Origin: an uncultured Bacteroidia bacterium
Lineage (GTDB): Bacteria; Bacteroidota; Bacteroidia; Bacteroidales; UBA932
Length of the DNA: 11,298 bases
NCBI GenBank assembly: GCA_902766985.1
Contig: CACXFP010000259.1
Location: 1-11,298, forward strand
Direction of reading: 5' to 3'
A model generated the notes under the pieces. That model did no database searches. It had not been told where the DNA came from and saw nothing but the letters and a program-made list of their open reading frames with translations. Shown here piece by piece: positions 1 to 10,520 of this stretch. The first letter of the stretch is position 1, and each line of letters opens with the position of its first letter. A program made the translations under genes and the position numbers.

Positions 1-1
1 C

Positions 2-160
2 GACGGCCTATATAATACACTCACTGATAGCGGAATAATAGTAAGAAACCGTTCAAGGGTCAAAGGTTGCGAAGGTTGTCTGAGGGTCACCGTCGGAACT
101 CCGGCCGAGAATGACAGGCTGATTTCCATCCTGAAGGATCCCCTTTCACCAGATGCCCTT
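2..160 (+). other. hisC: HisC C-terminal domain segment of the fusion
   Basis: This is the end of the PLP-dependent histidinol-phosphate aminotransferase. The stretch with GIIVRNRS, the [12 protein letters not shown] block and ENDRLISIL matches the usual HisC C-terminus, where the arginine of LRVTVG binds the substrate phosphate or carboxylate. In a stand-alone HisC the protein would stop a few residues after this point; here translation runs on into HisB. Confidence 0.8.
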
Positions 161-763
161 CCACCTGTCTTCATTCCCGGGGAAAGGCATGTGGTCATCT
201 CACGGGAGACAAAGGAGACTAAGGTAAAGATTGACCTCAATCTGGACGGCCAGGGAGGTAACTGCTGCATCGACACAGGTTTGAAATTCTTCGACCACAT
301 GCTGGAGCAGATTCCCCATCACGGAGGAATCTCGCTGGACATCAAGGCGGATGGTGACCTGGAAGTGGATGAACACCACACTGTTGAAGATGTCGGAATC
401 GTCCTGGGAGAAGCGATATCCCGTGCCCTCGGATCGAAAGCCGGCATAGAAAGATACGGTTTCGTCCTGCCTATGGATGAATGCGAGGCCATGGTGCTCA
501 TCGACCTCGGAGGAAGGATAGATTTCAAATGGGACGTGGAATTCACGAGAGAATATGTAGGCGACGTTCCTACGGAGATGTTCCGCCATTTCTTCCAGTC
601 CGTCTGCAACGGAGCCAAATGCAATCTCCACATCAAGGCGACAGGAGAGAATAACCACCACAAAGCGGAGGCCGTCTTCAAGGCATTCGCAAGAGCTTTG
701 AGGATGGCTGTGTCCAGGAGCCGTTTCCCTTATGAACTACCATCCAGCAAAGGCCTCCTATAA
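2..763 (+). CDS. hisB: HisC-HisB fusion (5' partial): C-terminal histidinol-phosphate aminotransferase joined to imidazoleglycerol-phosphate dehydratase
   Basis: The frame is open from the window edge to the TAA at 761-763. Codons from 2 read the end of a HisC ([23 protein letters not shown] then ENDRLISIL), followed by a linker of roughly 20 residues rich in proline, then a complete IGP dehydratase domain from about GTG 191 (190 residues; family usual length about 195). IGPD motifs seen: [24 protein letters not shown] and [16 protein letters not shown], which hold the metal-binding histidines and acids, and the typical C-terminus [13 protein letters not shown] makes imidazole-acetol phosphate, which HisC then transaminates, so the two domains catalyse consecutive steps. 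There is no stop codon between them. A GGGGAAAGG run before GTG 191 could allow separate internal initiation of HisB. No HAD histidinol-phosphatase domain precedes IGPD, unlike the bifunctional HisB of enterics and many Bacteroides. The HisC catalytic lysine lies outside the window. Confidence 0.9.
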
Positions 764-781
764 CATAAAGCCTCGCTTTAA

Positions 782-1390
782 ATGATTGCCATAATAGACT
801 ATAATACAGGAAATCTGAAATCTATAGAAAACGCACTGGGGCGACTGGGGGCGGAGTATGATGTAACCTGCGATGAGATGGTCATACGCTCCGCAGACAG
901 GGTGCTCTTGCCCGGTGTCGGAGAAGCATCATCAGCGATGGAAAATCTCCGTCGGACCGGACTTGACAAGGTGATTCCAACTCTCTCAGTTCCCGTCCTG
1001 GGAATCTGCATAGGCATGCAGCTGATGTGCCTGCACAGCGACGAGGGCGATGTGGACGGGTTGGGCGTTTTCCACAGCCGCGTGCGCAGGTTCTCTCCCG
1101 AAGACTCTTCGCCGGAAGAACGGATCAAGATTCCTCATGTCGGCTGGAACAGCGTCTCAGCCGCAGCCTCTCCCCTATTCCGCGGAATCCCGGACGGAGC
1201 CTGGTTCTATTATGTCCATTCATTTTATGCCGAGACCTGTGCTGACACGATTGCATCCACGACATACGGCAAAAGGGATTTCAGCGCTTCACTGCGCCGC
1301 GGTATTTTTTTCGGGGTGCAGTTCCACCCGGAAAAAAGCGGGGCAACAGGTTCCAGACTCCTGTCTAACTTCTTAAGCATGAGCCTATGA
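782..1390 (+). CDS. hisH: Imidazole glycerol phosphate synthase, glutamine amidotransferase subunit HisH
   Basis: Class I glutamine amidotransferase of 202 residues. It hydrolyses glutamine and channels ammonia to HisF, with which it forms the heterodimer that makes IGP and AICAR. The start MIAIIDYNTGNLKSIENAL is the standard HisH N-terminus. The nucleophile elbow GICIGMQ places the cysteine at residue 76, and the GVQFHPEKSG motif supplies H182 and E184, so the catalytic triad is complete. The oxyanion-region motif LLPGVGEASSAM is present. The ATG lies 18 nt after the hisB stop, and its own stop overlaps the hisA start by 4 nt (ATGA), which suggests translational coupling. Confidence 0.96.
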   Translation: MIAIIDYNTGNLKSIENALGRLGAEYDVTCDEMVIRSADRVLLPGVGEASSAMENLRRTGLDKVIPTLSVPVLGICIGMQLMCLHSDEGDVDGLGVFHSRVRRFSPEDSSPEERIKIPHVGWNSVSAAASPLFRGIPDGAWFYYVHSFYAETCADTIASTTYGKRDFSASLRRGIFFGVQFHPEKSGATGSRLLSNFLSMSL

Positions 1391-2109
1391 TCAACATTAT
1401 TCCAGCCATAGACATTTCGGGCGGAAAATGCGTCAGGCTCACCAAGGGCGACTACTCCCGCAGCAAGACCTACTTCGAGGACCCTGTTCAGGCCGCATCT
1501 CTTTTTGAAGACTGCGGAGTACGGAGGCTCCACCTGGTGGATCTTGACGGGGCAAAGGCGGCCTCGCCGGTTAATCTGGATGTACTCGAAAGGATTGCTT
1601 CGAAAACGAATCTTGAAATCGAATTCGGAGGTGGCCTGAAATCAAGGGATTCCATCAAATCAGCATTCGGTTCCGGTGCAGGATATGCCATCTGCGGCAG
1701 CATCGCGGTATCTTCTCCTGAGATATTTCGAGAATGGATCGGAGAATTCGGGGACAGGATTATCCTCGGCGCAGACCACAGGAACGGGTTTGTCGCCGTA
1801 AACGGCTGGCTGGATGACACAAGGACGTCGGTTGAAAGCCTCATTTCCATTTCCCCGGGGCTCAGGACCGTCATCTGCACTGACATCTCCCGTGACGGGA
1901 TGCTCCAGGGAACCGATGCAGGTTTTTATACATCCCTGCAGGACAGATTCCCGGAGACAGATATCATCGTAAGCGGAGGTATCTCGTCCACGGAAGACAT
2001 TATGGCTTTAGACAGATTGGGACTACGCGGAGTAATCGTTGGAAAGGCGATCTATGAAGGCAGGATTAATCCAGAAGACATTAAAAAGTTGATCTATCAT
2101 GCTGTCTAA
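1387..2109 (+). CDS. hisA: ProFAR isomerase HisA
   Basis: Phosphoribosylformimino-5-aminoimidazole carboxamide ribotide isomerase, 240 residues, a (beta/alpha)8 barrel doing an Amadori rearrangement before HisF. Seen: [15 protein letters not shown] with the catalytic aspartate D9, FGGGLKS in the first phosphate site, ILGADHRNG with the second catalytic aspartate D130, [12 protein letters not shown], and IIVSGGISS in the second phosphate site. Length is usual for the family. It starts in the 4-nt overlap with hisH and ends in an 11-nt overlap with hisF. Confidence 0.96.
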
Positions 2110-2854
2110 GAGGATAATTCCCTGCCTGGACGTAAAGGACGGGAGGACTGTAAAAGGTATTAATTTCGTGAATCTCCGCGATGCAGGAGATCCTGTGGAG
2201 CTAGGCGCCCGCTATGCAGCGGAGGGAGCCGACGAGCTGGTCTATCTGGATATAAGCGCATCCCACGAAGGCCGAAGGACGTTCACAGGCCTGGTAACCA
2301 GGATATCCGAGGCCATCGACATACCTTTTACGGTCGGAGGCGGTATATCCTCTGAAAAAGATGCCGGAAGGCTCCTGGATGCAGGCGCAGACAAGATTTC
2401 CGTCAACACAGCCGCTGTCGATGATCCGGACCTCATCACCAGGATTGCATCCAGGTTCGGTTCCCAGTTTATCGTCTGCGCCATTGACGCTAAGATGGTT
2501 GACGGAATATGGAAGGTAACGACCCACGGGGGCAGGAACCTCACGGACAAGGAATTATTCAGCTGGGCGAAAGAGGCCCAGGAGCGCGGTGCCGGAGAGA
2601 TCCTGTTCACCTCGATGGACCATGACGGGAGCAAAGCCGGCTATCCCTGCCGTACCTTCGAGCGGCTGTGTTCGTCCCTGGACATTCCCGTCATAGCCTC
2701 CGGAGGGGCCGGGAGCATAGAAGACATAGCCAAGGTCCTCACGGAAGGCAAGGCGGACGCCGCCCTCGCCGCCAGCATATTCCATTACGGAGAAATATCG
2801 GTTCAGGAACTCAAGAAGGCCCTCGCATCAAGGGGCATCCCGGTCCGGTTGTAG
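2099..2854 (+). CDS. hisF: Imidazole glycerol phosphate synthase cyclase subunit HisF
   Basis: Cyclase partner of HisH, 251 residues, (beta/alpha)8 barrel. It uses ammonia from HisH to turn PRFAR into IGP and AICAR, the latter feeding purine synthesis. The catalytic aspartates are D11 in [12 protein letters not shown] and D130 in [11 protein letters not shown]. The phosphate sites FTVGGGISS and VIASGGAGS are present, as is the [14 protein letters not shown] loop. It overlaps the end of hisA by 11 nt, so the two are probably translationally coupled. Confidence 0.97.
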
Positions 2855-2887
2855 AAGTTTTATTTTTTGAAAAGGTTTATCAGCATT

Positions 2888-3490
2888 ATGGAATTCAAGG
2901 ATTTAAATACATCTAAAGACTCTACCGGACTCGTTCCGGCAATCATCCAGGACTCCCGCACACTCAAGGTACTCATGCTGGGCTATATGAACGAAGAAGC
3001 CTTTGACAAGACGGTTTCATCCGGCCTTGTGACCTTCTACAGCAGGGACAGGGGCTGCATCTGGACAAAGGGAGAGACCAGCGGCAACTACCTGCATCTG
3101 GTTTCAATGTCGGCCGACTGCGACAACGACACCCTCCTGGTCAAGGCCGTTCCAGACGGACCTGTCTGCCACCTGGGCACGCAGACATGCTGGAAAGACA
3201 CTCCTGAATCGGAAGGGTTCATCAGGGAGCTTGAAGGCGTAATCCAGACCCGCCACAAAGAAATGCCTGAAGGAAGCTACACTACCAGCCTCTTCTCGTC
3301 AGGGGTCAACAGGATGGCCCAGAAAGTCGGGGAAGAAGCCGTCGAAACCGTCATCGAGGCCATGGCCGGCAATCACGAAAGACTTGTCTACGAGTCCTCA
3401 GACCTGATTTACCACCTCCTCGTGCTCCTCACTTCCCAAGACATCTCAATATCCGACCTCGAAAAAGAACTTCTCTCGAGGCATCGGTAA
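2888..3490 (+). CDS. hisIE: Bifunctional phosphoribosyl-AMP cyclohydrolase / phosphoribosyl-ATP pyrophosphohydrolase HisIE
   Basis: Fused HisI-HisE, catalysing the second and third steps of histidine synthesis. I start it at ATG 2888 (200 residues, beginning MEFKDLNTSK); a TTG at 2867 would add 7 poorly supported residues. HisI domain, about 14-105: MLGYMNEEAF, IWTKGETSGN, the metal-binding SADCDNDTLL (D77, D79, D81) and the zinc cysteines C78, C94 and C101. HisE domain, about 111-200: EGVIQTRHKEMPEGSYTTSLF and VGEEAVETVIEA with paired glutamates E149-E150. It is the last gene of the cluster, 33 nt after hisF. I see no intrinsic terminator between its stop and the tRNA promoter, so transcripts may run on to the terminator at 3630. 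Confidence 0.95.
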   Translation: MEFKDLNTSKDSTGLVPAIIQDSRTLKVLMLGYMNEEAFDKTVSSGLVTFYSRDRGCIWTKGETSGNYLHLVSMSADCDNDTLLVKAVPDGPVCHLGTQTCWKDTPESEGFIRELEGVIQTRHKEMPEGSYTTSLFSSGVNRMAQKVGEEAVETVIEAMAGNHERLVYESSDLIYHLLVLLTSQDISISDLEKELLSRHR

Positions 3491-3503
3491 TTTTGCACGG
3501 TAT

Positions 3504-3534
3504 TTTTGATTTGACCAGATTTTTAGTATCTTTG
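3504..3534 (+). promoter_or_regulatory. Bacteroidetes-type promoter for tRNA-Gly
   Basis: TATCTTTG at 3527-3534 is a perfect match to the Bacteroidetes -7 element TAnnTTTG. TTTTG at 3504-3508 lies 18 nt upstream as a plausible -33 element. Transcription would start close to 3541, just before the tRNA 5' end at 3545. Confidence 0.7.
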
Positions 3535-3544
3535 TACCTGTCAA

Positions 3545-3617
3545 GCGGAATTAGCTCAGTTGGTAGAGCGTTGGCTTCCCAAGCCGAAGGTCGCGAGTCC
3601 GAGCCTCGTATTCCGCT
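3545..3617 (+). tRNA. tRNA-Gly (anticodon CCC)
   Basis: Full cloverleaf of 73 nt. The acceptor GCGGAAT pairs perfectly with ATTCCGC. D arm GCTC-AGTTGGTA-GAGC. Anticodon arm TTGGC-TTCCCAA-GCCGA gives CCC, reading GGG glycine codons. T stem GCGAG/CTCGT. Discriminator T73, with no full CCA encoded. The T loop reads TCCGAGC, so the normally invariant U55 (pseudouridine) is C in this copy; everything else looks functional. Confidence 0.93.
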
Positions 3618-3629
3618 CACCTGCCTCCG

Positions 3630-3652
3630 ATGCCTTTCGGGGGCATTTTTTT
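3630..3652 (+). terminator. Rho-independent terminator after tRNA-Gly
   Basis: ATGCC/GGCAT stem with a 7-nt loop, followed by a run of seven T. It ends the tRNA transcript and probably the histidine operon read-through as well. Confidence 0.75.
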
Positions 3653-3693
3653 GTATACGGAATCCGGTCACAAACCATTATTAGTTCTAGGCG

Positions 3694-3715
3694 GGCGGGA
3701 CATTTTCCTACCGCC
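3694..3715. repeat. GGCGG/CCGCC hairpin in the convergent intergenic region
   Basis: A 5-bp GC inverted repeat with a 12-nt loop lies between the tRNA terminator and the tandem hairpin repeats. It has no T-run on the - strand, so it is not a clear terminator. It may close the 3' end of the lipoprotein transcript. The rest of 3653-3693 shows nothing recognisable. Confidence 0.35.
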
Positions 3716-3777
3716 TTGCCACGAAAACACTCTAAGGAGCACCACATTGTTTTCGTGACAGGTTTTTCGCGATCTCT
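3702..3777 (-). repeat. Tandem hairpin repeat, unit R1
   Basis: Read on the - strand the unit is AGAGATCGC, then GTCACGA, a stem, TCGTGGC and AAAATG. The stem CACGAAAACA/TGTTTTCGTG (3720-3729 with 3748-3757) is a perfect 10-bp inverted repeat. It is paralogous to unit R2, and the inner stem bases differ between the units on both arms at once. It lies in the 3' region of the lipoprotein gene. Function unknown; it could be a structured 3'-UTR element or a REP-like repeat. Confidence 0.6.
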
Positions 3778-3779
3778 GC

Positions 3780-3853
3780 CCATTTTCTCGCCACGACGCC
3801 CACCACAAGGTCTTTTAGTGTGCGTCGTGACAAGGCTCTTTCATGCGATCTCT
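3780..3853 (-). repeat. Tandem hairpin repeat, unit R2
   Basis: Second unit, starting 3 nt after the lipoprotein stop codon on the - strand. It shares AGAGATCGC, GTCACGA, TCGTGGC and GAAAATG with R1. Its stem is CACGACGC/GCGTCGTG (3792-3799 with 3822-3829), extended by CAC/GTG after one mismatch. The loops of both units contain TGTGGTG. Confidence 0.6.
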
Positions 3854-3856
3854 TTA

Positions 3857-4216
3857 TTAATTCTTTGTCAGAACCATTCCTGGGAAAGTCATTTTATCTC
3901 CGGTGACAGTTCCATTAAGAGCAACCGGCACATTCTCCAGGTTTACAAATGATAAAGTAACTATCGGATGATCGTACACATAGTCACCACTGACCTTGTC
4001 CTCTTCCGTCCCATCAAAATCATAAGAAGTTATTACCATAGTGAAAGTGTTCTTATGGAATTTCAGGACATAGGTTTCCGTCCAATCATTTCCAGATTCA
4101 ACGCCGCCCCACTCAGTCCCGTTCAGGGAGTGACTCTCCCCTTTCCCGCAGGAAGACAAGCAAACGACAAACAAGACAGCCGCAATGGCGGCAACGATGC
4201 AAAAAGTCTTTTTCAT
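3857..4216 (-). CDS. Small lipoprotein, lipocalin-like
   Basis: 119 residues with a signal peptide: KK at the start, a hydrophobic core (IVAAIAAVLFVVCL), then the lipobox LSSC with C23 as the lipidated cysteine. The mature part begins with a charged stretch and then LNGTEWGG, followed by alternating beta-type segments (ETYVLKFHKNTFTM, GDYVYDHPIVTLSF, LNGTVTGDKMTFPGM). This resembles small lipocalin-like Bacteroidetes lipoproteins, with unknown ligand. ATG 4216 is preceded by an A-rich leader and a promoter at 4263-4298 of the same type as the RNA-ligase promoter. Its 3' end runs into the R2/R1 hairpin repeats. Any role in the ligase system is uncertain; shared regulation is the only link. Confidence 0.8.
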   Translation of the reverse strand: MKKTFCIVAAIAAVLFVVCLSSCGKGESHSLNGTEWGGVESGNDWTETYVLKFHKNTFTMVITSYDFDGTEEDKVSGDYVYDHPIVTLSFVNLENVPVALNGTVTGDKMTFPGMVLTKN

Positions 4217-4262
4217 TTTTTTAGTTGTTTAAACAGTTAATGGCTTTGTTTCTTTTTAACAA

Positions 4263-4298
4263 CAAAACTAACTACGGGTTGCTCCAAGACGTGGGACA
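4263..4298 (-). promoter_or_regulatory. Shared-type 36-bp promoter, lipoprotein unit
   Basis: On the - strand: TGTCCCA, 4 nt, TTGG, 1 nt, GCA, 9 nt, TAGTTTTG (-7 element, 4270-4263). The spacing is identical to the promoters at 7515-7550 and 8015-8050. Predicted start is near 4256, giving a leader of about 40 nt before ATG 4216. Confidence 0.7.
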
Positions 4299-4314
4299 CA
4301 ATGAAAGAATCAGA

Positions 4315-4348
4315 GAAATAATACAACACCCTGGCCGAAGCCAGGGTG
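4315..4348 (-). terminator. Terminator-like hairpin at the end of the ligase operon (paralogue of 7567-7600)
   Basis: Stem CACCCTGG/CCAGGGTG (8 bp, 9 with the C-G closing a CGAA loop on the + strand), followed on the - strand by TTGTATTATTTC. It closely matches the hairpin at 7567-7600; one stem base pair is changed on both arms. Like that copy, it sits just upstream of a promoter of the shared type. Confidence 0.65.
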
Positions 4349-4356
4349 AGGCGCGG

Positions 4357-4377
4357 TCCCTGTGCCGGGCCGCTATA
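4357..4377 (-). ncRNA. GC-rich hairpin GCGG...CCGC in stretch C
   Basis: On the - strand GCGG-C-CC pairs with GG-A-CCGC (7 positions, one mismatch), loop about 7 nt. It is directly followed by the CCTCACCC terminator hairpin. The adjoining GGACCGCKCC is also found before the terminator of array A, so the two 3' ends share an origin. Confidence 0.4.
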
Positions 4378-4430
4378 GTCCAAGAGCCCGGTCGGGCAGG
4401 AGGGCACATCTGGTGACCGACCCTTTGGAC
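4378..4430 (-). ncRNA. Two-segment hairpin in stretch C
   Basis: On the - strand GTCCAA (4430-4425) pairs with TTGGAC (4383-4378), and inside it GGTCGG (4422-4417) pairs with CCGACC (4395-4390), with an apical loop of about 21 nt containing CCAGATGTGCC. There is no TTCRA T-loop, so it is not an obvious member of the tRNA-like family. It follows the zinc-ribbon remnant exactly where array B follows the intact zinc-ribbon gene, so it may be a diverged counterpart. Confidence 0.4.
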
Positions 4431-4453
4431 AAATCCAGGCACTTATAGCCGGC

Positions 4454-4516
4454 TTAATCGGCCACCATCATCTGTACCACATGGTCGCGGAAGTTGGGAT
4501 CTCTCGTAACAAACCA
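4454..4516 (-). pseudogene. 3' remnant of a second zinc-ribbon gene
   Basis: A 20-codon open fragment ending NFRDHVVQMMVAD-stop, preceded in frame by TGA codons. It aligns with the C-terminus of the intact zinc ribbon at 5851-6063 (DFQDHVKQIMLVD-stop). DNA similarity continues through the stop codon into GATTAAGCC and then TGGATT. The rest of the gene, including the zinc-binding cysteines, is gone. It lies between DUF4419 and the hairpins of stretch C and suggests a past duplication of a zinc-ribbon plus RNA unit. Confidence 0.6.
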
Positions 4517-4538
4517 TCATCATAGGGTAAATAGCTTT

Positions 4539-5657
4539 TCAATTTTCAATATTTCTGCATACAAACCAGCCTACCTTTGCCTCTAAAGCTAGATTGTCAT
4601 CCTCTGATAGACCGACGATGCCAGAATACAAATCCATATTGTACTGCTCGATAATATTTTTCCCGTCTGAGACTTGAAACTTAATGGGAACAGATACTAT
4701 TTCAGGAGGCATTGTTGAATCAAACAAAACCTTTCTCTGTATTTGGCAGGACTGTCCTTCTGGAAATAACCGAAGAATCCAACCATCCATACTGGATAGT
4801 TTTCCTCCAAAATAGCCGCAATGACGGCGTTGTAATTCTTGTGGCCGATAACGCTTGACAATACTTTTCCAAAATGTTTTCCTAGGATTACCTTCTGCAG
4901 CACTGACGAATTCTTTAAGAACATATGATAGTTTGCGAATCCAGGCATTCACTCCGTATTTCGCAAGTTTCTTTGCCTTTAAATAGACCTTTTTCCAATC
5001 TTCTGGTGTCCCCTTAAGTGTTATAGATGGAATACCGCAGATATATCCACCATACACATAATCAAAATAAGGTTTGACAGTATCCATAAGAGTAATTTGA
5101 GAAGCCACTTTTTCTACTGTTCCTGTTGTTGTAAAATCAGCAGTAATCACGGCAGACAAGTCTGCTTTAGTGCTTTTAGATATCTCTTCTGCAAACTTCT
5201 GAACAATTCGATCCCAATCTGCATTATCGGGATCATAATATACGCTATCAACTGTAATTATTGCAACATCTTCGTGGTCCACAAACAAATGGCGAAGTTT
5301 TTCGGCATTCTCGCGGATGTACCGATTGAATCCCTGACATATAAGAAGCCAAATGACATCCGGGGAAAGGATGACTGGACGGTGGCACCCATACGCTCGT
5401 CCCATCATTTGAAAAAAAGGATCTTGTTGATAATAAAGAATCCTATCGGAATCACTGAAACTTATATGGCACAACGATACTTTATCGCTTGTATCACCAT
5501 GTCTGTTAATGTGATAGAAAGCAAGTTTTTCGGCAGGGAGATTCCAATATAATTTGCGGTCATCAAGTGTGAGATTCTCGTCCACCTCGAAGCAGATTAC
5601 TCCATTTTCTTTATTTAGAATACGACAGAATCTCTGATTATCATAACTAAGTTCCAT
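4539..5657 (-). CDS. DUF4419 family protein
   Basis: 372 residues, soluble. Family-like blocks in order: LSPDVIWLLICQGFNRYIRENAEKLRHLFVDHE at about 97-129; an FTTTGTVEKVASQITLMDTVKPYFDY segment at about 175-200; CGIPSITLKGTPEDWKKV at about 207-224; and DGWILRLFPEG near 291-301. The combination (aspartate-tryptophan-rich helices, TTT, CGIPS.TL.G...DW, GWI..LFP) is what I know as DUF4419, a family without a proven activity found in bacteria and fungi. It is the last protein gene of the ligase operon, 26 nt after a tRNA-like RNA on the same strand. Its codon use seems more AT-rich than the ligase and HIRAN genes. A role with RNA is only inferred from its neighbours. Confidence 0.8.
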   Translation of the reverse strand: MELSYDNQRFCRILNKENGVICFEVDENLTLDDRKLYWNLPAEKLAFYHINRHGDTSDKVSLCHISFSDSDRILYYQQDPFFQMMGRAYGCHRPVILSPDVIWLLICQGFNRYIRENAEKLRHLFVDHEDVAIITVDSVYYDPDNADWDRIVQKFAEEISKSTKADLSAVITADFTTTGTVEKVASQITLMDTVKPYFDYVYGGYICGIPSITLKGTPEDWKKVYLKAKKLAKYGVNAWIRKLSYVLKEFVSAAEGNPRKTFWKSIVKRYRPQELQRRHCGYFGGKLSSMDGWILRLFPEGQSCQIQRKVLFDSTMPPEIVSVPIKFQVSDGKNIIEQYNMDLYSGIVGLSEDDNLALEAKVGWFVCRNIEN

Positions 5658-5683
5658 ATCTATGATGTTTTATAATTTGATGG

Positions 5684-5757
5684 GGAGCACGGAGGACTCG
5701 AACCTCTCCTCCCGACTCACGTCCAGTTTGTTCCATATACACTGGCATCTGTGCTCC
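5684..5757 (-). ncRNA. tRNA-like RNA B1
   Basis: Acceptor-like helix GGAGCAC/GTGCTCC, 7 perfect base pairs. T arm with loop TTCGAGT (5702-5696) and stem AGAGG/CCTCC (outer A-C mismatch). After the acceptor comes AGATG, then hairpin CCAGT-GTATATGGAACAA-ACTGG in place of the D arm, then a mini-hairpin GAC-GTGA-GTC with a GNRA loop in place of the anticodon arm. About 74 nt. No seven-base anticodon loop exists, so it should not decode. It lies 26 nt before the DUF4419 start inside the operon. A2 and A1 share the AGAYRCC and ATAT..GGAACAA features. CCA follows the helix directly. Confidence 0.65.
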
Positions 5758-5762
5758 TGTTC

Positions 5763-5835
5763 TGGATTGGGTAGGATTCGAACCTCCGATATAGCCACCT
5801 AATGATGCCTCCCGCTCCCGTGCGACCATCAATCC
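5763..5835 (-). ncRNA. tRNA-like RNA B2 (tRNA-derived, anticodon arm lost)
   Basis: Exactly 73 nt, and it fits standard tRNA numbering: acceptor GGATTGA/CCAATCC (one A-C mismatch at 7-66), T8, D arm with 3 of 4 pairs and G18-G19, A15 with C48, T stem GGAGG/CCTAC (one mismatch), T loop TTCGAAT, G53-C61, A73. The anticodon arm is broken: two of five pairs mismatch, a third is G-T, and position 33 is A instead of U. It lacks the AGAYRCC and GGAACAA motifs of the other members. It begins 15 nt after the zinc-ribbon stop and is 5 nt from B1. It could be a decayed tRNA or a tRNA-derived functional RNA. Confidence 0.55.
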
Positions 5836-5850
5836 ATATTTGCCGTTGGC

Positions 5851-6063
5851 TTAATCGACCAGCATTATCTGTTTAACATGATCTTGAAAGTCCGTATCAT
5901 TCACCGACATCCGGTGGCCGCATTTGGGGCAATAGTCTGGCTCATCCTCATTCCTGGACTTTGGGAGTTTCACGCCTTCAACCAGTTCCTTGACGAAGGC
6001 TCCTTTCACGATTTGAAAGGACTGTCCGCATTTGGTACAGATTACGTTATACACATGTGCCAT
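5851..6063 (-). CDS. Small zinc-ribbon protein
   Basis: 70 residues with two CxxC knuckles: C9-x-x-C12 (VICTKCGQSF) and C45-x-x-C48 (YCPKCGHR). It is likely a single zinc-ribbon fold with a 30-residue central insert and an acidic tail (DTDFQDHVKQIMLVD). No enzyme motif is seen; such ribbons usually bind nucleic acid or protein. It is co-directional with the HIRAN gene 32 nt upstream and is followed by tRNA-like RNAs. A truncated paralogue of its C-terminus lies at 4454-4516. Confidence 0.8.
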   Translation of the reverse strand: MAHVYNVICTKCGQSFQIVKGAFVKELVEGVKLPKSRNEDEPDYCPKCGHRMSVNDTDFQDHVKQIMLVD

Positions 6064-6095
6064 AGTACTGAGAATAAACTGTTTTACCTTACTGA

Positions 6096-6455
6096 TTACT
6101 GTCTGTTCTCCTGCTGCTGCTTCTTGACGAATACGCTTACTTCAACCTGCTGCTCGGGGTGGACATCAGGAGTGATCCTCGTGATGCGGACATCGTAGAT
6201 ATCCTCAAGACCCATGTCTAGGTACTTGGAGATATCGTGGTTCGAGCCGCGGGGGATGAACCCAAGCTTGTACTCGCCGTAGTAGATAGCTACGGCATAA
6301 GGGTCGAAGCGGTTGTCTTCCTCTCTGACCAGTTCCAGCTTGGTTCCGATCTTGAGGTGTTCGAAGGCTTCGCAGCCTTCCCAGTAGCCGAAACCGGCGA
6401 TGTGGAAATTGTCCAGATGGACCTTCTTGATGGGCTTTTGCTCTTTGTTTCTCAT
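6096..6455 (-). CDS. HIRAN domain protein
   Basis: 119 residues, essentially one HIRAN domain (about 13-85): FHIAGFGYWEG, then LKIGTKLELVREEDNRFDPYAVAIYY, then KLGFIPRGSNHDISKYLDMG. In HLTF and Rad5-type proteins HIRAN binds free 3' ends of single-stranded DNA; stand-alone bacterial HIRANs are of unknown substrate. The final 25 residues are a charged, glutamine-rich tail. The ATG lies 22 nt after the RNA ligase stop, so it is in the same operon. End recognition next to an end-joining enzyme is a reasonable inference. Confidence 0.88.
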   Translation of the reverse strand: MRNKEQKPIKKVHLDNFHIAGFGYWEGCEAFEHLKIGTKLELVREEDNRFDPYAVAIYYGEYKLGFIPRGSNHDISKYLDMGLEDIYDVRITRITPDVHPEQQVEVSVFVKKQQQENRQ

Positions 6456-6477
6456 AAGGCGTCTTTTTTTAATGAGT

Positions 6478-7491
6478 TTATATGTTTGCTTTCTGGATCA
6501 GCTTGGCAGACATCCTGGCGAGTTCCTTCTTGAGGGCCTTCTGTTCGGCATTTTCCAGTTCGTCGAACGAGACGGCATTCTCCTTCATGAAATCATCGAA
6601 CACGTCTTTGGCATAGAGGCCGGTCAGCTTCCCGAAGTCGTTCGGCATCTTTACCTCACCGATGTGACTGATGACATTGTCCAGCCTGGGCTCCGTGATA
6701 TAAGTCGCCAGGACGGCCATGAGGTTCTTCATCTCTTCACTGTAATGTGCCGTCGGATCAATAGCGGGGCGAGGACCCTTTCGCGCCCGTTTCTCCGCGA
6801 ACCGGGAATTCTTGCTCTTGATGAGGACCCTGGCCCCGGTCGTCAGATACATCGGGGCAACAGGCCTTATCACGATCCCTTCGCAGATGTTATCCTTGAT
6901 CGGAGGTAATCCGAGCCACTCAGGTATATGGGTGATGAATGCATTGGGATGCGTCAGGCATTCTTCCAGGCTTCCGGTAAAAAGGGTCCTTGCGTAAAGG
7001 AATCCATGCTTCTCGAAAAGGGTGTTCGTTTCCTCGACCGGCAGGAAGCGTCCTTCGTCTTCGGACTGGATGTAGATATCGAATCCATAGAAATCATGTC
7101 CCGGGCAATAATAGATTCCTTTCTGGACGAGCTTCACGTTCTTGACCTGCTTGACTTCCGGGTGCGGATAACTGCCGCCGAACAGTTCGCCGAAGATGTT
7201 AACCTGTACCGCTCCAGGATACTGACCCATCGCATCCTTTGCCAGCGCCAGGATATTGTTGCGGTAGGTGTCCACCAATTCTCCGTAATCGTAGAAGACT
7301 TCTCCATTCTCGATCACGGCAGTCATTTTGGCGAATACGATTTCCGTTCCGTCGCACAGGAAACTAGCATTCGCACCATGCACCTTTTCCTGTACTACAT
7401 ACTTCAGATCCCGGGGCATTTGAGTGCGGACCTTGCCGACAAACTCCTCATCAAAGGAGTTTTCAATTGAGTTGTACTTCTTGAAAATCAT
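6478..7491 (-). CDS. T4 Rnl2-type ATP-dependent RNA ligase
   Basis: 337 residues from ATG 7491, close to T4 Rnl2 (334). The start MIFKKYNSIENSF parallels the MFKKYSSLENHY start of T4 Rnl2. Nucleotidyltransferase motifs: I, EKVHGAN with K36 as the adenylated lysine; IIIa region, NIFGELFGG and FYGFDIY; IV, EGIVIRP; V, VLIKSKNSRFAEK. The Rnl2-specific C-terminal domain is present (LATYITEPRLDNVISHIGEV...PNDFGKLTGLYAKDV). Rnl2 enzymes seal 3'-OH/5'-phosphate nicks, preferably in duplex RNA. The open frame extends upstream to 7581, but that part crosses the promoter at 7515-7550, so ATG 7491 is preferred; it lies about 17 nt after the predicted transcript start. First gene of the ligase-HIRAN-zinc ribbon-RNA-DUF4419 operon. 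No end-healing kinase or phosphatase is visible. Confidence 0.93.
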   Translation of the reverse strand: MIFKKYNSIENSFDEEFVGKVRTQMPRDLKYVVQEKVHGANASFLCDGTEIVFAKMTAVIENGEVFYDYGELVDTYRNNILALAKDAMGQYPGAVQVNIFGELFGGSYPHPEVKQVKNVKLVQKGIYYCPGHDFYGFDIYIQSEDEGRFLPVEETNTLFEKHGFLYARTLFTGSLEECLTHPNAFITHIPEWLGLPPIKDNICEGIVIRPVAPMYLTTGARVLIKSKNSRFAEKRARKGPRPAIDPTAHYSEEMKNLMAVLATYITEPRLDNVISHIGEVKMPNDFGKLTGLYAKDVFDDFMKENAVSFDELENAEQKALKKELARMSAKLIQKANI

Positions 7492-7510
7492 GGCTGTGGT
7501 AATTGTTTCT

Positions 7511-7537
7511 GGTGCAAAGGTCGTGTGAGGTTGCACC
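7511..7537. promoter_or_regulatory. Inverted repeat over the ligase promoter (candidate operator)
   Basis: Perfect 7-bp inverted repeat GGTGCAA-N13-TTGCACC. One arm overlaps the GCA of the shared promoter motif and the other overlaps the -7 element and approaches the transcript start. The other two shared-type promoters lack the second arm. The geometry fits a dimeric regulator; the nearby WYL protein is a candidate. Confidence 0.5.
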
Positions 7538-7550
7538 AAAATGTGGGACA
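7515..7550 (-). promoter_or_regulatory. Shared-type 36-bp promoter, RNA ligase operon
   Basis: On the - strand: TGTCCCA (7550-7544), 4 nt, TTGG, 1 nt, GCA, 9 nt, GACCTTTG (7522-7515). The -7 element departs from TAnnTTTG at its first base (G for T), so this promoter may be weaker and regulated. Predicted start is near 7508, a short leader before ATG 7491. Confidence 0.7.
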
Positions 7551-7566
7551 GGGTGAAAGATTCTAT

Positions 7567-7600
7567 GAAAAAATACAACACCCCGGCCGAAACCGGGGTG
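7567..7600 (-). terminator. Terminator hairpin at the end of array A
   Basis: Stem CACCCCGG/CCGGGGTG (8 bp), followed on the - strand by TTGTATTTTTTC. It ends the array A transcript directly before the ligase promoter. It is paralogous to the hairpin at 4315-4348 with a compensatory C-G for T-A exchange in the stem. Confidence 0.75.
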
Positions 7601-7640
7601 AGGAGCGGTCCGACCCCGTCTCCGGTAAGACGAACCTTGA

Positions 7641-7715
7641 ATTAGGGTGGCCGATTTGCACGGCTGCCGACCATTTCAGGACGCTCGGTTCTATACATCT
7701 GGGATCTACCCTAAT
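7641..7715 (-). ncRNA. tRNA-like RNA A3 (diverged member)
   Basis: Closing helix ATTAGGGT/ACCCTAAT, 8 perfect pairs, extendable by two more (G-T, G-C). AGATCCC follows the 5' strand, matching the AGAYRCC position of the other members except for C at R. The T-arm equivalent is GCCG-TGCAAAT-CGGC (7664-7650), a 7-nt loop keeping T54, C56, A57 and A58 but with G for T55. The middle has ATGTATAGAACCGAG, a weakened form of ATAT..GGAACAA lacking the GG, and a possible CCGA/TCGG stem. About 75 nt. Confidence 0.5.
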
Positions 7716-7728
7716 CCCTTCAGGTTTC

Positions 7729-7770
7729 GCTGCTAAAGAATCATCCCGATAGGGGCTGTTCTTCTCCAGC
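7729..7770 (-). ncRNA. Extended three-segment hairpin between A2 and A3
   Basis: On the - strand GCTG/CAGC, then AAGAA/TTCTT, then CCC/GGG stack in one interrupted stem with a 5-nt apical loop. It is preceded by a smaller ACACC/GGTGT hairpin (about 7771-7788). It does not look tRNA-like. It is part of the array A transcript and may be a spacer, a processing signal or a separate RNA. Confidence 0.4.
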
Positions 7771-7791
7771 ACACCACCTCTTTGGTGTTTT

Positions 7792-7876
7792 GGAGCGCGA
7801 AGGGATTCGAACCCCTTCCTTCCCCGGTCTGGCGACCGACTCCTCTTGTTCCGACATATGAAGGTATCTACGCTCC
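7792..7876 (-). ncRNA. tRNA-like RNA A2
   Basis: Acceptor-like helix GGAGCGT/GCGCTCC (6 Watson-Crick pairs plus T-G), followed by A at the discriminator position. T loop TTCGAAT (7811-7805) on stem AGGGG/CCCTT. AGATACC follows the 5' strand and opens a CCTT/GAGG stem whose loop contains ATATGTCGGAACAA. Then comes hairpin CGGTC-GCCA-GACCG, five perfect pairs but only a 4-nt loop, at the anticodon-arm position. About 85 nt, the longest member. It starts 11 nt after A1. Confidence 0.65.
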
Positions 7877-7887
7877 TTTCAGGAATC

Positions 7888-7959
7888 AGTGCGGTGGGGT
7901 TGAACCACTCATTCTCACACAGAGCCGAATTGTTCCACAAATATATCGGTGTCTGCACC
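7888..7959 (-). ncRNA. tRNA-like RNA A1
   Basis: Closing helix GGTGC/GCACT (5 pairs, terminal G-T), shorter than in the other members. T loop TTCAACC (7904-7898) on stem AGTGG/CCACC with an outer A-C mismatch. AGACACC follows the 5' strand; stem CCGA/TCGG (7949-7946 with 7928-7925) carries a loop with ATATTTGTGGAACAA. Mini-hairpin CTC-TGTGT-GAG stands at the anticodon-arm position. First RNA of the array, about 49 nt after the predicted transcript start. Confidence 0.6.
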
Positions 7960-8014
7960 TTTCCCCTTACTCTTAAATGGGAGTTTCTTTAAAGTAACTT
8001 CCGTATTCTGAGAA

Positions 8015-8050
8015 CAAAACTAGAACAAGAGTGCCCCAAATCATGGGACA
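8015..8050 (-). promoter_or_regulatory. Shared-type 36-bp promoter, array A
   Basis: On the - strand: TGTCCCA (8050-8044), 4 nt, TTGG, 1 nt, GCA, 9 nt, TAGTTTTG (8022-8015). Same spacing as the ligase and lipoprotein promoters. Predicted start near 8008. No credible protein gene lies between here and the terminator at 7567, so this roughly 440-nt unit appears to be purely non-coding. Confidence 0.7.
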
Positions 8051-8056
8051 CCCTCT

Positions 8057-8083
8057 AAAAAAATTTTCTCTTTTGAAAAAAGA
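8057..8083 (-). terminator. Weak AT-rich terminator after the PUA-like gene
   Basis: Stem TCTTTT/AAAAGA with a 3-nt loop, followed on the - strand after GAAAA TT by a T-run. It lies just after the stop of the 8088-8570 gene and immediately before the array A promoter. Confidence 0.4.
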
Positions 8084-8087
8084 AGTA

Positions 8088-8570
8088 TTATTTAACAGCT
8101 TCTAGATGCTTCTTCCACAAAACCTCAATCCTAGCGGCGATTTCGGGAGCCACTTCGACACCGGCTTTGCCTTTGGACCACATTACTTCTGGGATGGCGT
8201 CGATCAGAACATTGGTTTTAAGGACCTTGTCGGAGGAGGGGTTGACAACAGAGTCCCAACGCATATCCATATAATAAACCTTACGTCCTTGACCAGACCA
8301 GTCTTCGTCCACATAAGGGTCTGAGGTGAATGTGCCAACACCTATGATGCCGGTGGGTTTCTCATAGCCGATGCGAATAAAGACGAAACGGTCGCCTTTG
8401 TGGGCTTTCTCATGTTCCAGGATACTCCAGTTGAAAAAGTCCGGAGAACGGTCCCAGTCATCAGCTTCCGTATAGACGTCTTTGCCTTCCGAAAAGTCGA
8501 AATCATCAAGGAATCGGTCCAGCTTGTAGCTGGAGAAAAAGGGATTCCAGTAAAGAAGGAATGTTGCCAT
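8088..8570 (-). CDS. PUA/EVE-like domain protein
   Basis: 160 residues. FLLYWNPFFSSYKLDRF at the start, then WSILEHEKAHKGDRFVFIRIG, GIIGVGTFTSDPYVDEDWSGQGRKVYYMDMRWD and a C-terminal helix IEVLWKKHLEAVK. The order (YWNP, a GDR-F-F-RxG strand, G-I-GxGxxxSDP, then a strand ending near RWD) resembles EVE/ASCH proteins of the PUA-like fold, which bind modified bases in DNA or RNA. I recognise the fold type by pattern only. It starts 17 nt after the WYL gene and is probably co-transcribed with it. It could be a reader of modified nucleic acid in the neighbouring RNA-repair or restriction functions; this is inference. Confidence 0.65.
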   Translation of the reverse strand: MATFLLYWNPFFSSYKLDRFLDDFDFSEGKDVYTEADDWDRSPDFFNWSILEHEKAHKGDRFVFIRIGYEKPTGIIGVGTFTSDPYVDEDWSGQGRKVYYMDMRWDSVVNPSSDKVLKTNVLIDAIPEVMWSKGKAGVEVAPEIAARIEVLWKKHLEAVK

Positions 8571-8587
8571 GGTTATTGATGTTTACG

Positions 8588-9499
8588 TTATTGATACAGG
8601 TCAAGTGCAGCTTTGTGCAACTGCTTGATGTCTTCGGCCAGATTGGCTGGCTCCAGGACCTTGATGGCCGCCCCCCGGGCAAGCAGCGGGCTGAAGAAGT
8701 CGGCCGTAGGCCTGAGAGTGAGTTCGAAATCGCTGAATTCTGCGCCGGTTTCAATCTCCTTCTGGCTATGGTGCAGTGGGAGATCCCGGAGGTAATTGGC
8801 TTCCTTGCCAAAAGCGCGGATGACCACACGCTGCACAGGAACCTCCTCGTCGCGGACAATGCCGTAGCAATCGCGGAACCATCCGGCCGGATCAAAATCC
8901 TTCTCGTATTCAAACTTCTCGTCAGTTACTTCTATAGACAAGATGCGGTCGAATGCCAGAGCGAACAGGTAGGCCGTAGGCTCCGGGAGCTTGACCAGGG
9001 CATACCAGCGCTTGTTGAACAGCTTGACAAAATACGGGTCAAGTTTCATGGATGTTTTGGAGGCATCGGTGCCATACCGCTGATAGCTGATCCGGACGCG
9101 TACGCCGCGTTTCATGGCGTCGATGAACTTGTGCAGGTTGTCGCCGGCGGAAGGGATGGCTTCCAGCAGGATGCGGTCATGGACTCTCCGGTTCTCGGAC
9201 AACAGGCCGCTTACTGACATAGTGGAGAACATCCAGTTCTGAATGGTATCCTCCCCCAGAACCTCCTCATTGTAAATATAATAGCGGAATCCATCCTTCT
9301 TGTCGCACTCGATGATGATTCCAAATATGTCAAGAATGGCATCACGATGCCGGTTGAACGTGCTGCGGGCAATCGGTATGCCTTCGCTCATCTCGGTATC
9401 AACCCATTTCCGGTTGATTTCCTCAAGAGAGAGCTTTCCGAACCGGTGAATGACGTTCACCAACCAGATATACTGTTGGAAAAGGGTGTAGGTTTTCAT
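8588..9499 (-). CDS. WYL-domain transcriptional regulator
   Basis: 303 residues. N-terminal winged helix-turn-helix-like region (1-78: LVNVIHRFGKLSLEEINRKW, ARSTFNRHRDAILDIFGI, then a YYIYN wing). Linker helices to about 130. WYL domain about 131-200 (RVRISYQRYGTDASK, then DPYFVKLFNKRWYALVKL with RWYAL at 164-168, then LFALAFDRILSIE). A C-terminal WCX-like part follows (PVQRVVIRAFGKEANYLRDLPLHHSQKEI). WYL domains often sense nucleic acids or nucleotides and control defence or damage-response operons. The overlapping 218-codon frame on the + strand is a shadow. No clear TAnnTTTG is seen before it, so it may be read from the upstream nuclease unit. Candidate controller of the three shared-type promoters. 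Confidence 0.85.
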   Translation of the reverse strand: MKTYTLFQQYIWLVNVIHRFGKLSLEEINRKWVDTEMSEGIPIARSTFNRHRDAILDIFGIIIECDKKDGFRYYIYNEEVLGEDTIQNWMFSTMSVSGLLSENRRVHDRILLEAIPSAGDNLHKFIDAMKRGVRVRISYQRYGTDASKTSMKLDPYFVKLFNKRWYALVKLPEPTAYLFALAFDRILSIEVTDEKFEYEKDFDPAGWFRDCYGIVRDEEVPVQRVVIRAFGKEANYLRDLPLHHSQKEIETGAEFSDFELTLRPTADFFSPLLARGAAIKVLEPANLAEDIKQLHKAALDLYQ

Positions 9500-9584: not shown

Positions 9585-10520
9585 TTAAGGCATTAGTTCT
9601 TCTATTTTTACTTTATCAGCAATTCGCCTATATATATGGACGTATTCCTTATTGTCGCAATCATTGGTCAACTCAAACACTCCAATGAACTTAATACACG
9701 GCTTTCCATAATAGTCCCTCATCCGCATAAAAACTATGCGCTTGTAATCAATGTCAAGCAAAGGGTCAAAAGGGTGGTTCGATTTTTCAATCAATAATGT
9801 AAGATCGTCTGAGAGAGTGTTCTCGTATCCCATCTTACCGTTGCGAACCTTTCCGCTCTCATCTTTTTCCGCCAAAATAGGCACCCATAATTTGTATCTA
9901 TCGTTGAGGCGGTAATAACACCTCTGAAGAGATTTGGCATCGGAGCCTTTAGCCTTTCCGGACCTCCTGCCGCCACACATATTGTATATTTCTGTTATAG
10001 AAGGATAACTGATTTCGTCAGAAATACTAAACACTCCTTTTCTCAAGACCTCTTCCTTTCGTTCTTTGTATGTCAGCCACTTAAGAGGGGCATTTTCGAC
10101 AATCTTGTCCTTGATTATGTCAACGACCTTGTCAATGTCGGCAACAATATCCTCATATGACCTCTTATTGCCCTCTTTATCAAAGATGGAAATACGAAAC
10201 TCTTCGCATTCTATTGCAGTTCGGATATCTTCCCCACGCACAATATCACGTGCCTTTTGCACTTCTCCCATATGGTGTCTTTCATCAACCTCGACACCAT
10301 ATTTAAGCTGAGGAAAATATAAATCAAGAAGATAGTAGCATCTTTGGTCCCTCGGATTCTTCACATACTGCTGCGTGACAGGCATAAGTTCGCTTTCTCC
10401 AACCTTGGTGTAGATGGCGTTGACAATAAAGTTTTCATATGCCTTTCCCGTCGTGCGTACATTAAACATGTAGGCGATGTGGTCCAGATGTTCGCTCAGA
10501 TTGTAGTTATTCTTTTCCAT
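9585..10520 (-). CDS. Putative Vsr/PD-(D/E)xK-like nuclease, possibly a modification-dependent endonuclease
   Basis: 311 residues. N-terminal half: AYENFIVNAIY (E29), then YLLDLYFPQLKYGVEVDERHHMGE with D66, E78, D80, E81 and H82-H83. This acidic pair plus histidines in strands resembles Vsr-like or PD-(D/E)xK nuclease cores, which cut DNA. C-terminal part: YKRIVFMRMRDYYGKPCIKFIGVFEL and VHIYRRIADKVKI, a pattern found at the end of SRA-like or other restriction-associated modules. Together this suggests a restriction enzyme that reads modified DNA, like the AbaSI/PvuRts1I type, but I cannot prove the SRA fold by eye. It lies 29 nt after a small ORF and 85 nt before the WYL gene, all in one direction. 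Confidence 0.5.
   Translation of the reverse strand: MEKNNYNLSEHLDHIAYMFNVRTTGKAYENFIVNAIYTKVGESELMPVTQQYVKNPRDQRCYYLLDLYFPQLKYGVEVDERHHMGEVQKARDIVRGEDIRTAIECEEFRISIFDKEGNKRSYEDIVADIDKVVDIIKDKIVENAPLKWLTYKERKEEVLRKGVFSISDEISYPSITEIYNMCGGRRSGKAKGSDAKSLQRCYYRLNDRYKLWVPILAEKDESGKVRNGKMGYENTLSDDLTLLIEKSNHPFDPLLDIDYKRIVFMRMRDYYGKPCIKFIGVFELTNDCDNKEYVHIYRRIADKVKIEELMP

Follow-up and report, generated by a model that had tools for sequence, protein, structure and literature searches.

What do clusters of tRNA-shaped RNAs do beside an enzyme that mends RNA? The question is raised by an operon in the window, by which we mean the whole stretch of 11,298 nucleotides analysed here; the bacterium that carries such clusters next to the enzyme is of the gut type. 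The operon is real and runs in the order WYL regulator, p160, RNA array A, Rnl2 ligase, HIRAN protein, zinc ribbon, array B and DUF4419 protein. Its protein genes and putative control elements are the following.

8588..9499, minus strand: WYL (WYL+WCX) transcription regulator, 303 aa (Pfam WYL 30.7 bits, WCX 30.1 bits)
8088..8570, minus strand: p160, 160 aa, with an EVE/YTH (PUA-like) fold (AlphaFold2 pLDDT 93.5)
8032..8050, minus strand: putative operator TGTCCCATGATTTGGGGCA ahead of array A (genome pattern search)
8015..8022, minus strand: -7-like box TAGTTTTG of the array A promoter (sequence reading)
7579..7600, minus strand: terminator-like hairpin closing array A (CACCCCGG/CCGGGGTG, then a T-rich run; direct reading)
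7532..7550, minus strand: putative operator TGTCCCACATTTTGGTGCA ahead of the ligase operon (genome pattern search)
6478..7491, minus strand: Rnl2-type RNA ligase, 337 aa (TIGR02307, 203.8 bits, cutoff 197.15)
6096..6455, minus strand: HIRAN protein, 119 aa (PF08797, 46.7 bits)
5851..6063, minus strand: zinc-ribbon-like protein, 70 aa (weak matches to many zinc-ribbon families)
4539..5657, minus strand: DUF4419 protein, 372 aa (PF14388, 221 bits)
4454..4492, minus strand: remnant of the 3' end of a second zinc-ribbon gene (FRDHVVQMMVAD, then stop; direct reading)
4327..4348, minus strand: second terminator-like hairpin, within a duplicate of the end of array A (82% over 83 nt)
4280..4298, minus strand: putative operator TGTCCCACGTCTTGGAGCA ahead of a lipoprotein-like gene, 3857-4216 (genome pattern search)

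Most protein assignments made in an earlier, sequence-only reading of this DNA held. The WYL and WCX domains, HIRAN and DUF4419 were all matched, and the ligase, HIRAN, DUF4419 and WYL+WCX genes do share one strand. The ligase is full length, as had been claimed: it exceeds the curated TIGR02307 cutoff, scores 70.9 bits against 27 for T4_Rnl2_C, combines a nucleotidyltransferase part with the Rnl2 C-terminal domain, and keeps the residues EKVHG, NICEG and K.KN across 13 aligned sequences. For the zinc ribbon only the likeness stood, none of the 25 families listed of the 41 matched being above cutoff. Two features had been overlooked. One is the p160 gene between the WYL gene and array A, which has 163 homologs; 44 of the 50 PDB rows listed for p160 were YTH-domain chains (best E 1.7e-4), and a PDB sequence search with its profile returned a single chance row. 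The other is the zinc-ribbon remnant in 4217-4538, an interval that also partly duplicates the end of array A; FRDHVVQMMVAD is comparable to FQDHVKQIMLVD, which with its stop forms the end of gene 5851-6063.

The proposal of a shared promoter type can be made more exact: a common putative operator ends 9 nt ahead of TAGTTTTG, GACCTTTG and TAGTTTTG, the -7-like box being assigned by the consensus TAnnTTTG. This operator is genome-specific. Allowing up to 2 mismatches, it has three copies in the draft genome, all at the window locus, where they precede array A, the ligase operon and the lipoprotein-like gene; the reversed pattern, used as a control, gave one match. The exact operator did not occur outside the window locus in the first set of fetched loci, and at 2 mismatches the ligase loci gave only noise.

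The RNAs themselves are listed below.

7888..7959, minus strand: tRNA-like RNA A1 (97.3 bits with model R1, of which it is a seed)
7792..7876, minus strand: tRNA-like RNA A2, closing stem GGAGCGT/GCGCTCC (R1 22.7 bits, E 0.0013, not an R1 seed)
about 7639..7716, minus strand: predicted RNA A3, 9-bp closing stem GATTAGGGT/ACCCTAATT (fold z -1.62)
5763..5836, minus strand: tRNA-like RNA B1 (78% over 67 nt to array element E4 of genome G342, E 1.5e-7)
5684..5757, minus strand: tRNA-like RNA B2, closing stem GGAGCAC/GTGCTCC (R1 79.4 bits, an R1 seed)

A1, A2 and B2, taken here as 7888-7959, 7794-7874 and 5686-5755, form one structured family. Each has a closing (acceptor-like) stem and, at the D-arm position, a hairpin whose conserved loop contains GG; a variable hairpin and a T-arm complete the fold. 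Aligned with four relatives, they keep pairing in 88 of 88 base-pair cells, in a model-fitted alignment in which 4 of the 7 rows are model seeds or represent an RNA already used as a seed. Both sides change in 9 of its 13 pairs, a figure matched by 1 of 500 shuffles, and double changes occupy 24 cells, which none of 500 shuffles reach; with the partners slid, pairing falls to at most 55.2%. Relatives of A1 occur in G438, G263 and phage L155/L121, and B2 is 74% identical over 57 nt to a phage RNA in L269. B1, which scores 16.7 against a tRNA cutoff of 29, has a counterpart in another species of the same genus (G342), and its closing stem covaries. The arrays claimed from the sequence alone stand as far as A1, A2, B2 and B1 are concerned, whereas A3 and pieces located within 7718-7790 and 4350-4450 remain predictions, because no believable homologs of them were found.

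Model R1 matched 43 of 300 genus genomes at E<=0.5 but only G000, G438 and G263 at E<0.01; six of the weaker matches, inspected individually, contained nothing tRNA-like. The pattern GGAACAA...GGTTC matched 13 of these genomes, with A1-like RNAs in two (G000, G438), and at least 120 stretches in viral contigs; among those listed, L121 alone resembled A1 by eye, the others being close to ordinary tRNAs or chance, and the matches in L153 and L154 looked like chance. A blastn search of phages and plasmids with A1 gave no match. In viral contigs the B1 core had 27 matches, none with a T-arm, and the E2 core had none. With the array as query, 17 of 300 genomes matched at E<=0.05, of which G342 alone was followed as real; the match in G236 lies inside an open-reading-frame-like stretch, and those of 24 nt in G370, G410 and G475 run across an artificial junction in the query.

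We then asked who the partner of these RNAs may be. In the sequence-only reading they were proposed as ligase guides, scaffolds or substrates; as a conserved partnership this is unsupported, because homologous ligase loci lack the RNAs, an outcome that the reading itself had named as refuting. Searched with model R1 only, 80 Bacteroidales GTDB loci (of 241 confirmed relatives, many on short contigs) gave a best E of 0.41 and no convincing match, and on these loci we rejected the idea that the ligase anchors the RNAs; nor was a convincing array RNA seen in any of 12 same-family ligase loci. A window-like HIRAN gene lay near the ligase in 1 of the 80 loci and WYL-like genes in 4. In L168 the WYL gene matches closely over its first third (65%, residues 7-97) but lies ~5 kb away, and an operator search there gave nothing beyond noise. 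No ligase was found in viral contigs. Three protein clusters, putative metallophosphoesterases as judged by motif, were common neighbors of the ligase (in 22, 19 and 4 of the 80 loci).

Two further links of the RNAs are stronger than that to the ligase. In G342, whose WYL protein is 77% identical to that of the window over 303 aa, WYL, p160 and a similar operator are followed by an array containing the B1 counterpart and other RNAs. More generally, p160 is a frequent WYL neighbor. A HIRAN gene with a product 88% identical to the window HIRAN follows the operator in G215, a lipoprotein-like gene (read by eye) does so in G385, and PARG_cat_microb and a vWA-like protein are encoded beside the same operator in G359. 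The ligase is absent from the remaining WYL-p160 stretches that were read.

A different protein recurs beside the RNA family. In two distinct phage contigs (L155, L269) and one bacterial genome (G263), a single family RNA lies 3' of the gene for a small protein, A7, and converges on it tail to tail; one pair was found starting from the RNA and another starting from the protein. A7 resembles a BECR-fold RNase: it is found fused to a MuF-like part, and the best solved matches of its model (the top VIA rows) are RelE and CdiA-CT toxin entries, at low Z. The A7 domain stands behind a MuF-like part in L155 (PF04233 at 29.5 bits, 0.1 below the cutoff of 29.6) and in G237, and is solo in L269; MuF fusion and solo occurrence in phages are the settings of PBECR domains. 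Foldseek found no PDB match to the domain at E 0.001 and three in BFVD at E<=0.001, with labels of little use, weaker rows being named nuclease or PolyVal. A PDB sequence search with the A7 profile returned nothing. The A5 profile had no match among 295 genomes from the order, a result without weight because the sample included no known carrier. Behind the four genes scanned, the longest gene-strand stems measured 16 (L297), 13 (L269), 10 (L155) and 7 (L266), compared with 400 random windows of which 3 reach 16, 11 reach 13 and 75 reach 10. The stem in G263 contains G-U pairs that can form on the RNA strand alone.

How, then, should the arrays be read? A functionless origin, as decayed tRNA genes or mobile-element debris, would suit the evident rearrangement (the zinc-ribbon remnant and the duplication) and the nearby chromosomal tRNA-Gly, at 3545-3618 the only tRNA that ARAGORN called in the window. 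ARAGORN called none in the arrays, whose RNAs do not form a cloverleaf with an anticodon arm. The fully kept pairing, the double changes and the promoter- and terminator-like signals make this origin barely credible, and for A1, A2 and B2 it is largely refuted, while A3 and the 4350-4450 stretch may be such debris. It is also very unlikely that the RNAs guide the Rnl2 ligase or serve as its substrates: array A stops just ahead of the ligase promoter, the ligase operon encloses array B and both share the operator, but the 80 ligase loci and the ligase-free WYL-p160 stretches speak against such a role, and the RNA has a different, recurrent partner in A7.

More can be said for the RNAs as stable, Y-RNA-like scaffolds or cofactors of a ribonucleoprotein of the locus, bound by p160, the zinc ribbon or HIRAN and acting as ligase sensors or tethers. 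The p160 fold is that of a reader of RNA or modified bases, p160 often adjoins WYL, and the array comes after p160 in both the window and G342. However, the A1 class occurs in phages and G438, where the compared stretches (L152, L266, L297) lack homologs of window proteins, in phages it sits beside another protein, and the two arrays differ in content, so that we regard this role as unlikely. A purely local effect of the convergent RNA on its partner gene, as a bidirectional terminator or type I-like antisense, with the arrays as leftovers, would account for the terminator-like closing stem and T-run and for an RNA 3' end that meets the stop codon of the gene. Yet conservation between contexts extends beyond the stem to loops and T-arm, and arrays without an A7 gene still keep compensated stems plus a dedicated promoter and operator; such an effect is quite unlikely to be the whole explanation.

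We favor the last guess of the sequence-only reading, that the RNAs are decoys against anticodon nucleases, because the RNA converges on an RNase-like gene in two phage contigs and one genome, and because WYL, p160 and a similar operator are followed by an array a second time. That closely related phage RNAs lie tail to tail with likely RNA-cutting toxin genes suggests that the RNA clusters are ready-made antidotes. We give about an even chance that the arrays consist of orphan RNA antitoxins, acting as tRNA decoys against RNases that are injected or imported, and that the ligase expressed together with them mends the cut RNA. Having a tRNA-like fold without anticodon function, such RNAs would have as their native partners the BECR-fold RNases carried by phages or elements. 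Placed behind the RNase gene and running against it, with a promoter of its own, the RNA would block the tRNA-binding site and so keep the producing cell safe. The anatomy and the partnership are demonstrated, whereas the antitoxin action is an inference, which presupposes that the A7 partner is an active RNase and that an array RNA can inhibit it. In the host, the WYL regulator would sense damage or invasion and, presumably by binding the operator, switch on the decoy collection; through the second operator copy it would also switch on the Rnl2 ligase and accessory proteins. The ligase may mend the same damage, sealing RNA that escapes decoy protection.

Type III toxin-antitoxin systems (ToxIN, CptIN, TenpIN), in which a structured non-coding RNA restrains an endoribonuclease toxin, would be similar. 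Their RNA is a series of pseudoknot repeats that precedes the toxin gene within one operon, a terminator standing ahead of that gene (PMC5086642). In contrast, L155, G263 and L269 have no tandem-repeat RNA upstream in a toxin operon, but a single tRNA-like RNA that has a promoter of its own and converges from the 3' side, and there are orphan mixed arrays in addition. The Salmonella rsr-yrlBA-rtcBA locus, with YrlA RNA, likewise combines an RNA ligase and a tRNA-like RNA under a ligand-sensing regulator. However, its components are RtcB, RtcR/CARF and the Ro-like Rsr, whereas the window has Rnl2 and WYL, and no TROVE (Ro) domain was found among the 10 window proteins scanned. Rfam contains a YrlA family; the arrays matched no Y RNA family, and no array RNA matched Rfam above the gathering score. 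MuF-PBECR polyvalent phage proteins, resembled by the MuF-like A7 proteins, are predicted injected RNases (PMC5512222), and the main text of that paper does not mention a non-coding RNA partner. WYL- or Nudix-regulated ADP-ribose-glycohydrolase systems with ARPP and HIRAN share WYL, HIRAN and PARG-like cargo with the loci described here, but the text of PMC9503650 does not mention tRNA-like or noncoding RNA, Rnl2 or DUF4419.

PBECR-type domains are found in phage head and polyvalent proteins, and the portions of the literature used here leave unstated how they are restrained in the producer cell. If our reading is true, a tRNA-shaped RNA made directly behind the gene would be that restraint, and RNA-repair islands would gain a second arm: decoys would prevent damage before the ligase mends it. 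The idea of a tRNA-like RNA as a competitive tRNase inhibitor reportedly goes back to Hughes et al. 2020; a defined protein–RNA pair makes it directly testable, and a covariance model is available for finding further pairs. Somewhat more tentatively, with chances a little short of even, Bacteroidales may maintain arrays of tRNA-shaped RNA antitoxins that are inducible and swappable: a library of nucleic-acid antidotes to injected BECR-type tRNases, assembled from phage toxin-antitoxin RNA pairs and tied to RNA repair via one WYL operator. The phage pairs themselves would then be an undescribed toxin-antitoxin type.

The gene run of the window lies on the minus strand of contig C259, part of a draft genome of 1.7 Mb in 297 contigs (completeness 88.5%), and reads as follows:

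9499-8588, minus: WYL regulator gene, first in the run
8570-8088, minus: gene of p160 (160-aa EVE/YTH-fold protein), between the WYL gene and array A
between the p160 and Rnl2 ligase genes, minus: array A
7491-6478, minus: Rnl2 ligase gene, passing the TIGR02307 cutoff
6455-6096, minus: HIRAN gene, 3' of the ligase gene
6063-5851, minus: zinc-ribbon-like protein gene, between the HIRAN gene and array B
between the zinc-ribbon-like and DUF4419 genes, minus: array B
5657-4539, minus: DUF4419 gene, followed by a 3' stretch
4216-3857, minus: lipoprotein-like gene, last in the run, beyond the 3' stretch

Directly upstream of the WYL gene (9585-10520, minus) lies a PvuRts1I-like methyl-directed restriction enzyme with an SRA domain (74.6 and 62 bits in Pfam; mREase_II in PADLOC). 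The HIRAN protein (6096-6455, minus) matches the PADLOC candidate PDC-M03B at 56.4 bits. Positions 4217-4538 hold a part-duplicate of the end of array A, comprising a terminator-like hairpin, an operator and a zinc-ribbon remnant, a sign that the locus has expanded by duplication.

The array of RNAs picked out by the sequence-only reading is real, and A1, A2 and B2 belong to one family. We built a model, R1, from A1, B2 and two copies outside the window; its structure has an acceptor-like closing stem, a hairpin at the D-arm position with GGAACAA in a long loop, and a T-arm. R1 recovered A2, absent from its training set, in the window with 22.7 bits. In an alignment of seven RNAs (A1, A2, B2 and those of genomes G438 and G263 and phage contigs L155 and L269), which was fitted to the model and therefore leans towards structure, four of the seven rows representing RNAs already used as seeds, pairing was kept in 88 of 88 cells and nine of 13 pairs showed two-sided changes (24 such cells). 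The corresponding shuffle means were 75.5%, 5.4 pairs and 7.5 cells, and sliding the partner strand left pairing at 55.2% or less. Within the arrays, Rfam returned no family at threshold and ARAGORN called no tRNA. Single-fold z-scores of seven window pieces were mixed (0.34 to -2.57); most of array A, folded as one strand, gave -2.94.

Outside the window, the RNA has a partner gene, whose product is a probable RNase. Among 300 genus genomes, R1 detected A1-like RNAs at E < 0.01 in G000, G438 and G263, and one more came from a pattern scan, in a Mu-like phage (contigs L121 and L155, counted as one since they share the RNA and near-identical genes). In both the phage and G263, the RNA lies just behind a gene, on the opposite strand, and the gene products share a domain with 39% identity. 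In the phage, this domain is C-terminal in a MuF-like head protein (PF04233, 29.5 bits, cutoff 29.6); in G263 it stands as a solo protein of 198 aa. From the protein side, viral contigs yielded L269, whose protein is named in the source as from Prevotella sp. tc2-28; R1 places its RNA on the opposite strand, 7 nt past the stop codon (58.7 bits, E 6.9e-14). The closing stem of this RNA is made of other, compensated base pairs and stretches as far as the stop codon. Using 22 members of the family as a profile, we reached one more protein, in G237 (E 4.6e-5). Over 270 aa it shares 44% identity with the MuF-like protein of the phage (E 2e-76), and phage contig L343 carries the same domain and RNA as G237. 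The G237 gene, too, has a convergent RNA behind it, with promoter-like TATATTTG, and a closing stem of 16-18 bp; its minimum-energy structure resembles a tRNA (z -4.33, 0/200), and it belongs to another sequence class (12.1 bits, E 0.76 with a second model, R2). The longest gene-strand stems behind the four genes are 16, 13, 10 and 7 bp; in 400 random windows, a rough control only, 16 was reached by three, 13 by 11 and 10 by 75, so that the stem scan alone supports two of the four genes.

In G438, positions 1-4000 of locus L152 (contig C3) form an island of small promoter-terminator RNAs with an orphan A1 copy:

519-1043: CdiA_C gene (1.9e-9, above cutoff)
2059-2520: LPD3-like gene (0.0063, below cutoff)
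near 1822-1864 and 2578-2622: two similar RNAs (80%)

By eye, a further small RNA of the promoter-terminator kind can be seen behind each gene, encoded on the opposite strand, and each of these RNAs has a short gene-less relative in the island (80% over 45 nt; 88% over 24 nt). An 83-nt repeat (77%) surrounds both gene starts, and a partial third copy (1221-1264) stands without a gene. These pairings are leads only.

The operator, a 19-nt site, occurs three times in the window's draft genome at up to two mismatches, always at this locus and each time with a TAnnTTTG-like box 9 nt beyond its end; the reversed control pattern matched once. The unit it belongs to recurs in one related species. A DNA search of the 300 genomes with the remaining array sequence matched B1 to contig C48 of G342 (78% over 67 nt), where WYL (77% identical), p160 (68%) and palindrome-like CTGTCCCATGATATGAGACAG precede an array of at least four elements, E1 to E4. 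E4 is the B1 counterpart, its closing stem differing by compensated changes, and E3 is also scored by R2 (16.9 bits, E 0.026). This 3.9-kb contig ends at the array, so that the presence of a ligase cannot be read from it.

The modeled p160 structure (pLDDT 93.5) matched YTH chains in 44 of the 50 PDB rows listed; other rows included PSPTO5229 and PH1033, which we take to be EVE proteins. YTH domains are readers of modified bases. Counting its own genome and distant paralogs, p160 is present in 10 of 300 genomes. Six further stretches (L310-L315) comprise three with WYL and p160 (L310, L311 and L312, the last with WYL cut), L313 with WYL and a p160 paralog, and two with the paralog only; none has a window-like ligase. 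With genes partly named by eye, the operator precedes HIRAN in L311, L312 and L313 and also a vWA-like gene in the first and last of these; in L310 it lies ahead of a lipoprotein-like gene. L313 also has an E2-like RNA. At 4191-9602 of L313 (G359:C105), the operator stands beside PARG_cat_microb, vWA-like, DUF1653, WYL (split, two frames), HIRAN, p160 paralog and HD-like genes, a set suggesting a wider WYL regulon. A possible further RNA, seen by eye, lies behind a gene inside the WYL-p160-HIRAN locus of L312 (G215:C84, 5780-5900), with a 9-bp closing stem ATCGAAATA/TATTTCGAT.

The sequence-only reading had chosen the right broad field, but it had placed the ligase at the center, paired with the RNAs, and had named relatives lacking them as evidence against that pairing. 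In an alignment of 13, the window ligase retains the conserved motif residues. These 13 ligases retrieved 241 relatives from GTDB contigs, and in the best 80 of the 241 loci (1.13 Mb) R1 found no convincing match (best E 0.41), nor did it in 12 same-family loci (a set without L014 and L015). With window proteins as queries, HIRAN appeared in one and WYL in four of these best 80, where metallophosphoesterase-like genes, recognized by motif, were common neighbors. By the refuting condition that the sequence-only reading had set itself, these results count against a conserved pairing of ligase and RNA. Here, the ligase looks like an accessory.

The idea of a tRNA-like RNA as a competitive inhibitor of a tRNase has prior art in Hughes et al. 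2020. In a review of type III toxin-antitoxin systems (PMC5086642), the RNA consists of pseudoknot repeats that lie ahead of the toxin; the word 'tRNA' does not occur there. Neighborhoods of WYL, HIRAN and glycohydrolase have already been described (PMC9503650), in a text that lacks the terms 'tRNA-like' and 'noncoding RNA'. No description of a tRNA-like antitoxin RNA system was found in the literature searched, which was mostly open access.

We judge the most economical reading to be an RNA antitoxin, orphan arrays and a ligase under the same operator. A phage-carried protein, a putative BECR RNase, would be restrained by the RNA as antitoxin. Host genomes may gather such RNAs without the toxin gene, as suggested by the putative RNase family (A7) matching only G263 and G237 of the 300 genomes, with G000 listed without a match and G438 presumed to be in the same sample, both being incomplete drafts. 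The gathered RNAs would be expressed as arrays from a promoter controlled, presumably through direct binding, by WYL. In the window, an Rnl2 ligase operon stands behind a further copy of the operator that precedes array A, so that one signal might elicit both decoys and repair, the latter on a substrate that we infer. The interest of the system rests in the phage RNase–RNA pairs, as we predict them to be, and in the orphan arrays.
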